Assembly: GCA_020284085.1 (NCBI GenBank) | Contig: JACEVL010000047.1 | Coordinates: 120,001-184,000 of the forward strand | Length of the DNA: 64,000 nucleotides | Origin: Aporrectodea caliginosa | Taxonomy: Eukaryota; Annelida; Clitellata; Crassiclitellata; Lumbricidae | Direction: 5' to 3' | In this document: positions 25,735-47,026 of the stretch, piece after piece | How the letters are laid out: every line of letters starts with the position of its first letter | Position numbering within the stretch: position 1 is the stretch's first letter | Translations under genes and position numbers: made by a program | Notes under the pieces: model-generated | The model's input: only the letters and a program-made list of their open reading frames with translations | What the model was told of the DNA's origin: nothing | The model's database searches: none

Positions 25735-25765
25735 ATGACATCGCAAACAACTTCAACGGCTGAAG
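25735..25765 (+). CDS. gene B exon 1 (start)
   Basis: ATG in context ACACAACATGAC opens MTSQTTSTAE and ends at a GTAAGC donor in phase 1. The frame continues correctly into the next exon. The start is chosen because the joined frame stays open through all later exons. Confidence 0.55.
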
Positions 25766-46700: not shown

Positions 46701-47026
46701 GAGATGGAAAGATGGTCATCCGTCGTTTTATTCCTTCAAACGAAACACAACAACTGAAGGATCCTATGTATCTTTCACTTGGTTCAGACGATCGAGTGTT
46801 TGTGACTGACTATACGAGTAGTAGAGTGATTCTCTTGGATTCAGATCTTAAATGGAATCGAATTCTTTGTCCATCAAAAGAAAAATATACGAATAGCCAA
46901 CAGCCATTGAGATTGTTTTACGACGAAGAAAAAAAACAACTGATCGTCGGAGGATATTATGGTGTTATTGTTTACACCTTAGATACACTGTTACTGGAAA
47001 ATGTGGGTTATAACACCTTAGAATGA
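25735..47026 (+). CDS. gene B: SH3/F-box-like/CARD/TRADD-N-like/propeller protein
   Basis: Nine exons: 25735-25765, 26225-26323, ~26733-27811 (interrupted by a MITE), 28445-28524, 28934-28962, 31038-31224, 32946-33233, 36354-36707 and 46128-47026. Every junction agrees in phase. Removing the MITE plus one TTA gives 2667 nt, about 888 codons plus stop. Predicted order: acidic N-terminal region, SH3, short linker, F-box-like, CARD, TRADD-N-like, propeller. No signal peptide or membrane segment is seen, so it is probably cytosolic. The domains suggest an innate-immune or cell-death adaptor with ubiquitin-ligase potential; that function is inferred. I do not recognise a named orthologue. Confidence 0.7.
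26225..26323 (+). CDS. gene B exon 2
   Basis: Acceptor TTTTTTTATTCAG and donor GTAGCT; 99 nt, phase 1 to 1. It encodes EGEISERGLKRRHSDNT followed by a short polar stretch ending HESVT. No domain. No equivalent in gene A. Confidence 0.6.
26733..27811 (+). CDS. gene B exon 3: charged region plus SH3 first half, split by a MITE
   Basis: The left part contains TLTLDFAGSFEVFSKLYETC and GKMLGKRLG. After the inserted MITE the frame resumes LTRAKKFSVILLSEEIKLRV. It continues through a basic helix (KIRKEIELNKRKKEIERL), an acidic Tyr-rich stretch with repeated DENYDSD/DENYDSE, and then CSEALTIKRGDEVETIP, the first strands of an SH3 domain. Without the MITE and one TTA the two frames join exactly. The donor is ATTGG|GTAATT, phase 2. 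The acceptor shown (AACAAG|TC) fits the phase but has a poor pyrimidine tract, so the left boundary is uncertain. Confidence 0.5.
26918..27293. mobile_element. Harbinger/ISL2EU-like MITE inside gene B exon 3
   Basis: The ends are inverted: GGGGTCGTCCATTATTATGT and the complement of ACATAATTAATGGACGACCC followed by C. TTA flanks both sides (26915-26917 and 27294-27296), the 3-bp TWA duplication of the PIF/Harbinger and ISL2EU groups. Subterminal copies of TTGTCAACAACTGTCAAAC occur near each end in the same orientation. The 376-bp element encodes nothing. Together with the 3-bp duplication it adds 379 nt and shifts frame. Confidence 0.85.
27960..28215 (-). repeat. tRNA-derived SINE (second family), minus strand
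   Basis: On the minus strand the head shows GGTACCGAGTTCGAGCCCCC (B-box) preceded by GCGCATTGGATAACAC (A-box). The body ends in a (TTA)n tail at 27960-27990. A second, closely similar copy is at 47775-48010. It lies in the intron between the two SH3 half-exons of gene B. Confidence 0.75.
28445..28524 (+). CDS. gene B SH3 second-half exon
   Basis: Acceptor CTATTTCTTTGCAG, donor GTAAGT. 80 nt, phase 2 in and phase 1 out. It encodes GDEVRWWMVRHLESGEIGFI followed by PKTCVV. The WW pair, the ESGEIGFIP turn and the final strand are the signature of the C-terminal half of an SH3 domain, which binds proline-rich ligands. The usual SH3 Tyr of PSNYV is Cys here. The phase joins exactly to exon 3. Confidence 0.8.
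28934..28962 (+). CDS. gene B linker micro-exon (29 nt)
   Basis: Bounded by TTTAAGCAG and GTAAGA. It converts phase 1 to phase 0 and encodes ENEQQPSNTT. Paralogous to gene A 5841-5869. Confidence 0.7.
28965..31037. other. gene B intron, no features recognised
   Basis: About 2 kb of AT-rich intron. Its first ~150 bp align with the gene A intron after 5869. No transposon ends found. Confidence 0.5.
31038..31224 (+). CDS. gene B F-box-like exon
   Basis: Acceptor TTTTCATTTTTAG, donor GTAAAA, 187 nt. It encodes LRELPLEMLDLVLENSFLHW, then KALASVDFCWFQRIIRRRFK and a basic end. The LPLExLxxxL start and the later VDFCWFxRI helix fit an F-box-like module. About half the residues match gene A. F-boxes bind Skp1 and link a substrate to SCF ubiquitin ligase; this assignment needs a profile search. 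Confidence 0.6.
31880..31965 (+). repeat. SINE/LINE 3' tail with (ATTACG)n
   Basis: CTTGGCTTTCCAGTGGCGCT, then five or six ATTACG units. The same hexamer tails the LINE fragment at 50796-51135, so this hexamer is a retrotransposon tail rather than a telomeric repeat. Confidence 0.6.
31970..32945. other. gene B intron before the CARD exon
   Basis: No repeat boundary or exon recognised. Ends in a GTCGTTTTAG acceptor. Confidence 0.45.
32946..33233 (+). CDS. gene B CARD exon
   Basis: 288 nt, phase 1 at both ends (donor GTTTAC). The frame reads KKRSAIIRNNGNYLLQNIQ, then LITSLLSLNCITEEQSQFI, KINELLRIVRSFDE and FVSCLRRTNQKTVARILENG. This is a clean six-helix CARD pattern: N-terminal basic helix, ITEEQ turn, and final L-x-T-N-Q-K helix. 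It probably recruits CARD partners in a cytosolic signalling complex. It is close to gene A 9424-9711 and has no frame damage. Confidence 0.85.
33680..33861 (+). repeat. (AAT)n microsatellite, about 60 units
   Basis: A long uninterrupted AAT run; 33902-33995 is a second, imperfect AAT/AAC tract. It gives false poly-Tyr/poly-Ile frames on the minus strand. Confidence 0.95.
34150..34215 (+). repeat. SINE 3' module
   Basis: GGTCGGGAGCGCCTCTGAAT ... GTGGCGCTATACAAATATTC, with an AATTAC tail. Confidence 0.65.
34215..35265 (+). pseudogene. retroelement pol C-terminal fragment
   Basis: Frames in order: LLRSSMIFQKLLHTARSCP, NQWIQASLPIKLGGLGIRR, then YYIYQARLGVVASANAGDWL, IRIAVCLRLGATTCEPHICP and RSLVWDVTVTDTVPPSYL. 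This long block, with its CEPHxCPCG zinc-like pattern and WDVT.TDT motif, follows reverse transcriptase in a widespread invertebrate retroelement group. At least four frame changes. A second, minus-strand fragment is at 52330-52870. Confidence 0.65.
35266..35496 (-). mobile_element. truncated piggyBac-like MITE, inverted copy
   Basis: Ends CCCGAGGG followed by TTAA (35497-35500). Reading the complement gives the left 230 bp of the element at 12241. Both copies hold the ATGGCG(G/T)... and GGTATAACTTTTGAATGGCG blocks. The other end is missing. Confidence 0.75.
35500..36060. other. gene B intron, nothing recognised
   Basis: AT-rich sequence without repeat ends. Confidence 0.45.
36065..36260 (+). 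repeat. (TATC)n/(TGTC)n compound microsatellite
   Basis: ATCTATCT and CTGTCTGT tetranucleotide runs about 70 bp before the TRADD-N-like exon. They produce an artificial N-terminal extension if translation is read through. Confidence 0.95.
36354..36707 (+). CDS. gene B TRADD-N-like exon
   Basis: 354 nt, phase 1 to 1, from TTTACTTTCAG to a strong GTAAGT donor. It encodes VVIKVKVQLCGAKC, then ILNSQLDRQTVVVWIWCHSQ, LIQMLYKSNQLRDVIF and KMINIDRNQFKKTV. The QTVVVWIWC strand and LYxSNQLRDV helix are the best conserved parts between copies. They resemble the alpha/beta TRADD N-terminal-like modules found with death-fold domains in invertebrates. If the intron is retained, translation stops five codons later, giving a form without the propeller. 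Confidence 0.6.
36720..37290. other. gene B last intron, proximal part
   Basis: AT-rich with no recognised element. Confidence 0.45.
37300..38372 (-). pseudogene. RTE-like LINE, reverse transcriptase to C-terminus
   Basis: The minus strand reads MDYEKAFDRVDWRRLVHALR, then GVRQGCPLSPLLFNIYLEEF, then ALRFADDQEMLARN with the FADD catalytic core, then KTKALKISKGK. After frame breaks it gives RKWIGHTLRGDSLPRTVIEG near the 3' end. This is reverse transcriptase fingers/palm/thumb plus the terminal region of an RTE-type LINE. Upstream sequence is cut at 38372 by a DNA transposon insertion. Confidence 0.8.
38373..40487. mobile_element. DNA transposon, TAGGGTGGT ends, inserted in a LINE
   Basis: The left end TAGGGTGGTCCACAAAAACA mirrors the right end, whose complement reads TAGGGTGGTTCACAGATGCA. 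Both continue into a shared block containing CACCCTCTCAGTTTGTTAG and CAATAGTATTATT. Flanks are TATATATA on both sides, consistent with a short duplication but too simple to size. The interior has decayed frames (39352-39612 and 39776-39973) with a VVNDTAQRCVKLFEEFNRLI motif. The superfamily is not certain. Confidence 0.7.
38610..38715 (+). repeat. (CTTA)n microsatellite
   Basis: CTTACTTA runs, interrupted once, inside the DNA transposon. Confidence 0.9.
40610..40780. repeat. degenerate GAACGG motif array (left)
   Basis: Three exact GAACGGGCGGCAAAA units are followed by looser GAACGG and GACCG units spaced 9-14 bp. A related inverted array lies at 45725-45850, suggesting the two ends of one large insertion. 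Confidence 0.55.
40806..41471 (+). mobile_element. probable solo LTR
   Basis: Starts TGTAACA and ends CACTACA (TG...CA), flanked by ATAT on both sides (40802-40805 and 41472-41475). It contains a TATA-type CTTTATATACCC near 41245 and an AATAATGC/ATTAAACG-type region. There is no internal coding region or partner LTR. The 4-bp duplication is in simple sequence, so confidence is moderate. Confidence 0.5.
41480..42320. other. gene B intron, nothing recognised
   Basis: One 98-codon frame (41449-41745) overlaps the LTR end and has no family signature. The rest is AT-rich. Confidence 0.4.
42330..42450 (-). mobile_element. fragment of the 14240-type MITE
   Basis: The complement reads GTGGCCCAACAAGTGGGCCA, then AATTTCACGTAAAT and GGGATCACCC, matching 14325-14430 in order. 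It is in the opposite orientation to the gene A copy. Its terminal repeats are not preserved here. Confidence 0.6.
42460..43678. other. gene B intron, nothing recognised
   Basis: AT-rich, no element ends found. Confidence 0.4.
43687..44978. mobile_element. hAT-type non-autonomous element with subterminal arrays
   Basis: The ends are CAGAGATGGGTA and the complement of TACCCATCTCTG. An exact 8-bp duplication ATCTGGTT flanks it (43679-43686 and 44979-44986), as for the hAT superfamily. Each end carries four to six copies of the palindrome CTAATCGATTAG followed by AATTAG units. These look like subterminal transposase-binding repeats. No transposase inside; the middle holds a nested MITE. Confidence 0.9.
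44326..44663. mobile_element. nested MITE with CAGGGCCGTAAATC ends
   Basis: Left end CAGGGCCGTAAATC; the complement of the right end reads AAGGCCGTAAATC. Flanks TTGTACT on both sides agree (7 of 8 bp in an 8-bp comparison), pointing to a hAT-like insertion. It contains G/C-rich GGGGAGGGAA / TTCCCTCCCC inverted pieces. Confidence 0.65.
45040..45140. mobile_element. small fold-back MITE
   Basis: Left arm TTCTAGCCCCAC...CCCGCTACTGTGC pairs with right arm GGCACAGTAGCGGGCGCC...GTGGGGGCTAGAA around an ~11-base centre. The right arm is partly repeated up to 45175. Confidence 0.7.
45650..45850. repeat. degenerate GTTCAA/CCGT motif array (right)
   Basis: Units such as GTTCAACTGTC, CCGTTCAATTGACC and GTTCAAATGTCC are spaced 10-14 bp. 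The complement reads GAACGG-like, as in the 40610-40780 array. Confidence 0.55.
46128..47026 (+). CDS. gene B NHL-like beta-propeller exon (last exon)
   Basis: Acceptor TTTTATCTTAG; phase 1 entry gives VVCPISINCIQ. The 299 codons hold six repeating blade patterns, for example VCGVTKLRNEIYVLC, KEDCLYVSDDGEKCVWKI, LSVLSDGQLLVVNIESSYLW, TSTGNFIILHLW, LSLGSDDRVFVTDYTSSRVI and DEEKKQLIVGGYYGVIVYTL. The 'hD.DG.hhVxD....hhhh' rhythm is typical of NHL/SMP-30-like six-bladed propellers, which bind proteins or RNA. There are no transmembrane segments; the first hydrophobic stretch of the longer frame lies mostly in the intron. The stop lies in a minisatellite. Confidence 0.8.

Follow-up and report, generated by a model that had tools for sequence, protein, structure and literature searches.

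Proteins that combine a death-fold domain, a TRADD-N domain and a β-propeller are known from marine invertebrates. The main text of Kaur et al. 2021 (PMC8195603) describes proteins with DED, TRADD-N and WD40 domains in Branchiostoma and Crassostrea (amphioxus and oyster) and reports their lineage-specific expansion, with 13-129 proteins in Branchiostoma species. It presents marine invertebrate conflict proteins with constant and variable parts and TRADD-N at the junction, proposes that TRADD-N keeps the flanking domains inactive until a signal arrives, and identifies the uS motif with the β2-β3 turn of TRADD-N; neither 'NHL' nor 'F-box' occurs in that main text. Here, we analyze a gene on the + strand (positions 25735-47026) of a 64,000-nucleotide stretch of the annelid Aporrectodea caliginosa (contig JACEVL010000047.1, positions 120,001 to 184,000; hereafter, the window). 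Its nine exons join an SH3 part, a conserved helical module, a CARD, a TRADD-N-like module and an NHL-type propeller in one frame. The layout resembles that of the Branchiostoma and Crassostrea proteins as presented in the main text of Kaur et al.: a death-fold domain is followed by TRADD-N and a C-terminal β-propeller, and the family is lineage-expanded. The gene differs from them in having a CARD in place of a DED, an NHL-type rather than a WD40 propeller, an additional SH3 part and helical module (exon 6), and no uS motif.

On balance, we read the locus as belonging to a family of intracellular sensors or adaptors that has expanded in this lineage and in which CARD signaling is conserved and propeller recognition diversifies. 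At the level of sequence, the modules are joined at phase-1 introns and the CARD-to-propeller order recurs in other loci; an immune role would follow by analogy. TRIM-NHL proteins (TRIM2, TRIM71, Brat, Thin) share the C-terminal NHL propeller, but RING and B-box are missing from the Pfam matches of our exon products, which carry a CARD and a TRADD-N-like module in their place. The CARD is shared with NOD1 and further CARD-bearing NOD-like receptors (NLRs; NOD1 is the nearest natural CARD in the PDB by profile, a weak match at E = 0.08), but NACHT, NB-ARC and LRR are likewise absent from those Pfam matches. A reading made earlier from the letters of the window alone (the sequence-only reading) knew of no described protein with this domain order. 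This stands for the exact domain set, as the literature searched gives no account of a CARD, TRADD-N and an NHL propeller in one protein, but the core order of death fold, TRADD-N and propeller has close parallels in the main text of Kaur et al.

Exon structure and domain content

The nine exons have AG/GT borders and, once joined, run without internal stops from the ATG at 25735 to the stop at 47026:

25735-25765, + strand: exon 1; the ATG opens the frame, which exits in phase 1; donor GAAG/GTAAGCT
26225-26323, + strand: exon 2; phase 1 to 1, AG/GT borders, open
27340-27811, + strand: exon 3; a basic stretch, then an acidic one, then the first half of the SH3; related exon at C10:1901867-1902482
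28445-28524, + strand: exon 4 (80 nt), which completes the SH3; its counterpart in locus C10_1907 is likewise 80 nt
28934-28962, + strand: exon 5, a 29-nt microexon, entered in phase 1 and left in phase 0
31038-31224, + strand: exon 6, the conserved helical module, formerly read as F-box-like; eight intact family members
32946-33233, + strand: exon 7, CARD (Pfam PF00619); phase 1 to 1
36354-36707, + strand: exon 8, TRADD-N-like; phase 1 to 1, GT donor
46128-47026, + strand: exon 9, NHL-type β-propeller and stop; profile match to PknD (1rwi)

The joined frame comprises 812 codons and the stop, and not the ~888 codons of the sequence-only reading. That reading had also claimed nine exons with fitting phases: nine exons do share one frame, but eight of those it listed are confirmed and the fit requires the microexon. 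Exon 4 exits in phase 1, but exon 6 (from 31038) is entered in phase 0; the phases fit because the microexon bridges the two. It was detected by a scan of AG/GT-bordered segments together with a self-comparison of the window, and is also present in a tandem copy upstream (copy 1, below) and in loci C355_626, C10_1619 (by pattern search) and C10_1907. The full frame arose in 0 of 11,477 random picks among neighboring AG/GT borders, which places it beyond chance. The frame also designates the ATG of exon 1 as the putative start, and candidate exons 1 and 2 are called from borders and frame only. Every module border is in phase 1, whether between the SH3 part and the microexon, exon 6 and the CARD, the CARD and the TRADD-N-like exon, or the latter and the propeller. 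Skipping exons 2, 7, 8, 7 and 8 together, or 5 and 6 together would keep the frame, and skipping exon 3 or exon 6 alone would lose it.

The introns hold several mobile elements. The sequence-only reading obtained its frame by excising a miniature inverted-repeat transposable element (MITE), a step that falls away: the MITE-like short element with terminal inverted repeats (26918-27293) sits in intron 2, directly before exon 3, and a second repeat (27972-28194) sits in intron 3. Intron 8 contains a DNA transposon (38350-40507) with terminal inverted repeats of ~118 nt that are 86% complementary, and measures 9.4 kb, compared with 1.1 kb in copy 1. Downstream of the gene, a young long terminal repeat element (53652-59295) has repeats at 53652-53884/54199-54809 and 58422-58654/58688-59295 with 98-99.6% identity; it encloses a 724-codon gag-like open reading frame (55136-57310), and no pol-like frame was recognized between the repeats in the list of open reading frames. 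Rfam gave no match at the gathering threshold.

Three domains named by the sequence-only reading were recovered by profile searches, the SH3 and the CARD at the positions it gave. The SH3 (27740-28524) spans the joint of exons 3 and 4 and narrowly passes the Pfam cut-off for SH3_2 (22.2 bits against 21.8); for SH3_1, both the window gene (15.7 bits) and a paralogue (20.6 bits) lie under the cut-off of 22.9, and a profile search of the PDB returned Src/Fyn at E = 0.001. The CARD matches PF00619 well above its curated cut-off (E = 2.1e-8, 34.5 bits against 23.9, model positions 4-84 of 85). In the AlphaFold2 model of P0002, a 531-residue metagenomic relative, the CARD has six helices, with predicted local distance difference test (pLDDT) scores of ~38-59 in the first two and 69-90 in the remainder; rows P0132 and P0133 were left out of the P0002 alignment after misaligning. 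By profile search, the propeller of exon 9 matches PknD at 2.6e-8, and in the P0002 model it consists of 24 strands from residue 165 on, matching the TRIM2 NHL fold (E = 4.3e-13, template modeling score 0.74 by target). Against the Pfam NHL repeat cut-off of 20, the window copy (18.9) and P0002 (17.9) score below and P0003 (21.4) above. None of five proteins matched NCBIfam above its cut-offs. Short tandem repeats lie at or just past the propeller C-terminus in the three copies examined: 47-nt units in the window gene (47003-47145), diverged units after copy 1 (16271-16575) and SSAVN repeats at the P0002 C-terminus.

The F-box label of exon 6 found no support. Pfam gave no F-box match at E ≤ 10 in any of eight members of the module, and the PDB profile search did not support one either. 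An hhalign comparison with four F-boxes reached P = 0.074, and with the eight members 9 of 200 column shuffles scored as well; the AlphaFold2 model is helical at pLDDT ~37-54. The proposed ubiquitination arm, through recruitment of SCF, rested on this label and is left unsupported.

Family copies and substitution rates

Upstream of the main gene, copy 1 (5841-16205) repeats the order of microexon, exon-6 module, CARD, TRADD-N-like exon and propeller:

5841-5869, + strand: microexon
7664-7850, + strand: exon-6 module, 53% identical
9424-9711, + strand: CARD exon (PF00619, E = 1.9e-7, 31.5 bits)
13729-14091, + strand: TRADD-N-like exon with a GC donor
15228-16205, + strand: propeller exon in two pieces in different frames, with a frameshift near 15.42-15.43 kb

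Since its propeller is frameshifted, copy 1 may be a pseudogene. The pooled ratio of nonsynonymous to synonymous substitution rates (Ka/Ks) between copy 1 and the window gene is 0.53 (95% bootstrap interval 0.42-0.67), with 542 codons from the four larger modules compared. The intron between its CARD and TRADD-N-like exons contains a Mariner-like (DDE_3) transposase fragment (10797-11444) that scores below the Pfam cut-off.

The genome search covered the 1.098-Gb assembly of 4544 contigs, in which the window is C46:120001-184000. It returned 718 candidate CARD exons. Of these, we scored 150; every one matched at E ≤ 0.001, and 148 lacked an internal stop. The family thus has at least 150 CARD exons, and the true number is higher because the CARD of copy 1 is absent from the 150. 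Contig C355 (680 kb) is a large family cluster, with 14 of the 150 on both strands. Ten further loci were taken from the best CARD matches to the window, and 20 kb was read at each, 9 kb of it upstream, so that counts of the exon-6 module and SH3 part are lower bounds. CARD, TRADD-N-like and propeller exons follow one another on one strand in all ten. The exon-6 module lies upstream in at least six, split over two frames in one of them, and SH3-part exons in at least three: C10_1907 (exons 3 and 4), C355_626 (E = 2e-23 for exon 3, E = 1e-4 for exon 4) and C689 (just exon 4, at E = 5e-4). None of the ten yielded a relative of exon 2. Additional tandem copies, seen as a further CARD exon or a fragmented second propeller, occur at C42, C10_1619 (about 19.7-20 kb) and C355_591 (15.8-16.7 kb). 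Protein searches returned two matches for the 802-residue joined query and five for a 338-residue query; no family relatives were found in the viral contigs or genome contigs searched. The single gene of the sequence-only reading stands as a unit, its exons recurring together in other loci, but not as a singleton.

These loci bear on a reading that we hold to be the least probable, and very improbable in itself, in which SH3 exons 1-4 form a gene separate from exons 5-9, or the exons are divided among several genes. The sparse SH3 part would suit it: it is found in only three of the ten other loci, and no relative was found upstream of copy 1 over ~15.8 kb (to 10 kb before the window). Three observations argue otherwise. 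First, upstream of the acceptors of exons 5-8, a stop precedes any in-frame ATG in both window copies (exon 6 of the main gene has an internal Met); an upstream exon exiting in phase 1 is therefore expected, and exon 4 qualifies. Second, the distant paralogue C10_1907 has exons 3 to 9 in window order, exons 3-8 also in window phases, with an exon 3 of 616 nt (the same remainder by three as in the window) and a microexon of 29 nt. Third, P0002 joins CARD and propeller. A propeller starting alone was also considered and rejected: an in-frame ATG (46103) precedes exon 9 in the window copy, but none does so in copy 1.

Substitution rates were obtained from the best tblastn piece per exon, in pairs that are non-independent, at loci picked by CARD similarity. 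Over the ten loci, pooled Ka/Ks is 0.27 (0.20-0.38) for the CARD, 0.37 (0.31-0.44) for the TRADD-N-like exon and 0.69 (0.58-0.89) for the propeller. Median Ks is similar across the three modules (0.28, 0.33 and 0.31, respectively), which argues that choosing loci by CARD does not create this gap. The propeller exceeds the CARD in 45 of 45 pairs and in 1000 of 1000 bootstraps, and the TRADD-N-like exon exceeds it in 32 of 45; propeller Ka/Ks is above 1 in six of 45 pairs. By these rates, the CARD is under stronger constraint than the propeller. The exon-6 module (six loci) has a median Ka/Ks of 0.20 at Ks near 1.

The same rates enter into another explanation, that tandem and transposon-assisted duplication was followed by drift, with most copies decaying, few working members and a propeller that is fast through relaxed constraint. 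We regard this as unlikely. It draws on the frameshift of copy 1, on multiple frames in the C42 propeller, the C355_626 propeller end, the second C355_591 propeller and the C484 exon-6 module, on the transposons in introns, and on a propeller Ka/Ks below 1 overall. Dead genes, however, would not be expected to have a CARD Ka/Ks of 0.27 at propeller-like Ks, nearly all scored CARD exons are open, and splice borders are conserved across loci.

The TRADD-N-like exon and its splicing

Exon 8 was compared with TRADD-N by fold and by sequence. The best of five AlphaFold2 models reaches pLDDT 81.7 (the others 64-70) and shows RRM-like β-α-β-β-α-β elements in that order, with kinked (split) helices. 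Set against the N-terminal domain of TRADD (1f3v), it is 8% identical, with a Z score tied with unrelated ferredoxin-like folds. At the predicted β2-β3 turn, 88 aligned sequences have R63 (70/88), Q64 (66/88) and T65 (81/88), with Ser at 65 in two of 88; Gln and Thr thus stand where the TRADD motif has Ser, and the uS motif is absent. The neighbor of exon 8 is a CARD, unlike the death domain of TRADD. The sequence-only reading's TRADD-N-like label is supported by the predicted fold, but the family motif is missing.

Homology to TRADD by sequence was tried and set aside, leaving the fold as sole support: the PDB profile search found perforin-2 only (E = 1.2), and in an hhalign comparison with human TRADD, 107 of 300 shuffles scored as well and the reversed sequence scored higher. 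No TRADD-N family is among the 25 listed of 69 Pfam families for the 88 members. Weak Pfam matches to the anoctamin 'alpha-beta plait' domain (20/88) and Sigma70_r1_1 (29/88) were read as fortuitous or as reflecting no more than the fold. A metagenomic protein search with the TRADD-N-like pair gave 128 matches at E ≤ 1, one at 99% identity. The 88-sequence alignment holds the two window copies, 85 from among the 120 matches listed of these 128, and one from the 338-residue query search; in its tree, 20 of 85 inner branches are well supported and the two window copies do not group.

Donors of the GC type are uncommon and are frequently associated with alternative splicing. Of 12 copies of the TRADD-N-like exon, 11 (those of all ten other loci and copy 1) are followed by a GC donor, and only the one in the window gene by GT. 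P0002 carries the exon-6 module, CARD and propeller without the TRADD-N-like part, its CARD-propeller joint coincides with the exon border, and its most likely origin is spliced RNA or a copy thereof. Frame-neutral skipping, the GC donors and the P0002 joint together suggest that the TRADD-N-like exon is a regulated cassette. Cells would then probably make protein forms with and without the TRADD-N-like switch.

Proposed function and its meaning

Because the layout matches that set out in the main text of Kaur et al., we infer that the propeller senses, the TRADD-N-like module switches, the CARD signals and the SH3 recruits. The propeller would bind a variable ligand, which could come from a microbe or virus or be a modified self protein or RNA. 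This binding would alter the contacts of the TRADD-N-like module, which sits between CARD and propeller. The freed CARD could then assemble with CARDs of downstream adaptors or caspases, leading to cell death or NF-kB-type signaling, while the SH3 part would recruit a proline-rich partner. The sequence-only reading had proposed an immune sensor or adaptor, and a single gene encoding an SH3, a CARD, a TRADD-N-like fold and an NHL-like propeller fits that proposal, without the ubiquitination arm.

Several points weigh against the sensor reading. The gene is read here from its sequence, and its putative immune role is proposed by analogy; exon 8 lacks the uS motif; the comparison loci were chosen for the closest CARD similarity to the window; SH3-part exons appear in just three of them within 9 kb upstream, and none were found within ~15.8 kb upstream of copy 1; a propeller Ka/Ks below 1 overall is also compatible with relaxed constraint; and P0002 comes from a 1884-nt metagenomic contig, with two extra residues at its exon-6/CARD joint.

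The propeller also invites a comparison with TRIM-NHL proteins, in which it would act in post-transcriptional control or virus restriction by binding RNA or a partner, and the CARD would merely multimerize the protein. Its nearest solved folds are the NHL domains of TRIM2, TRIM3, Thin, Brat and TRIM71, some in RNA complexes. Yet RING and B-box were not found by Pfam in the exon products, constraint is stronger on the CARD than on the propeller, and high copy number suggests conflict over housekeeping, so we consider this role quite improbable. Numerous copies with diverging recognition modules would also suit allorecognition or cell-death control rather than pathogen sensing, with diverse propellers marking colony or individual identity; nothing speaks for it specifically, and we give it little credence.

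Under the sensor reading, relative to the DED/TRADD-N/WD40 proteins, the locus is notable for copy number, exon design and rate gradient. More tentatively, the genome may hold hundreds of receptor genes that dispense with NACHT and LRR and combine a CARD and a TRADD-N-like switch with an NHL propeller that diversifies. The conserved GC-donor cassette would then determine if the switch is included, and a single locus would yield regulated and always-ready forms. If true, this would be a very large sensor repertoire made from non-NLR parts, with propeller recognition, CARD output and a spliceable TRADD-N-like switch. The constant/variable rule proposed for TRADD-N proteins could be tested on it directly, with substitution rates indicating the variable part, and it would be a tractable system for the origin of new immune receptors through exon shuffling.

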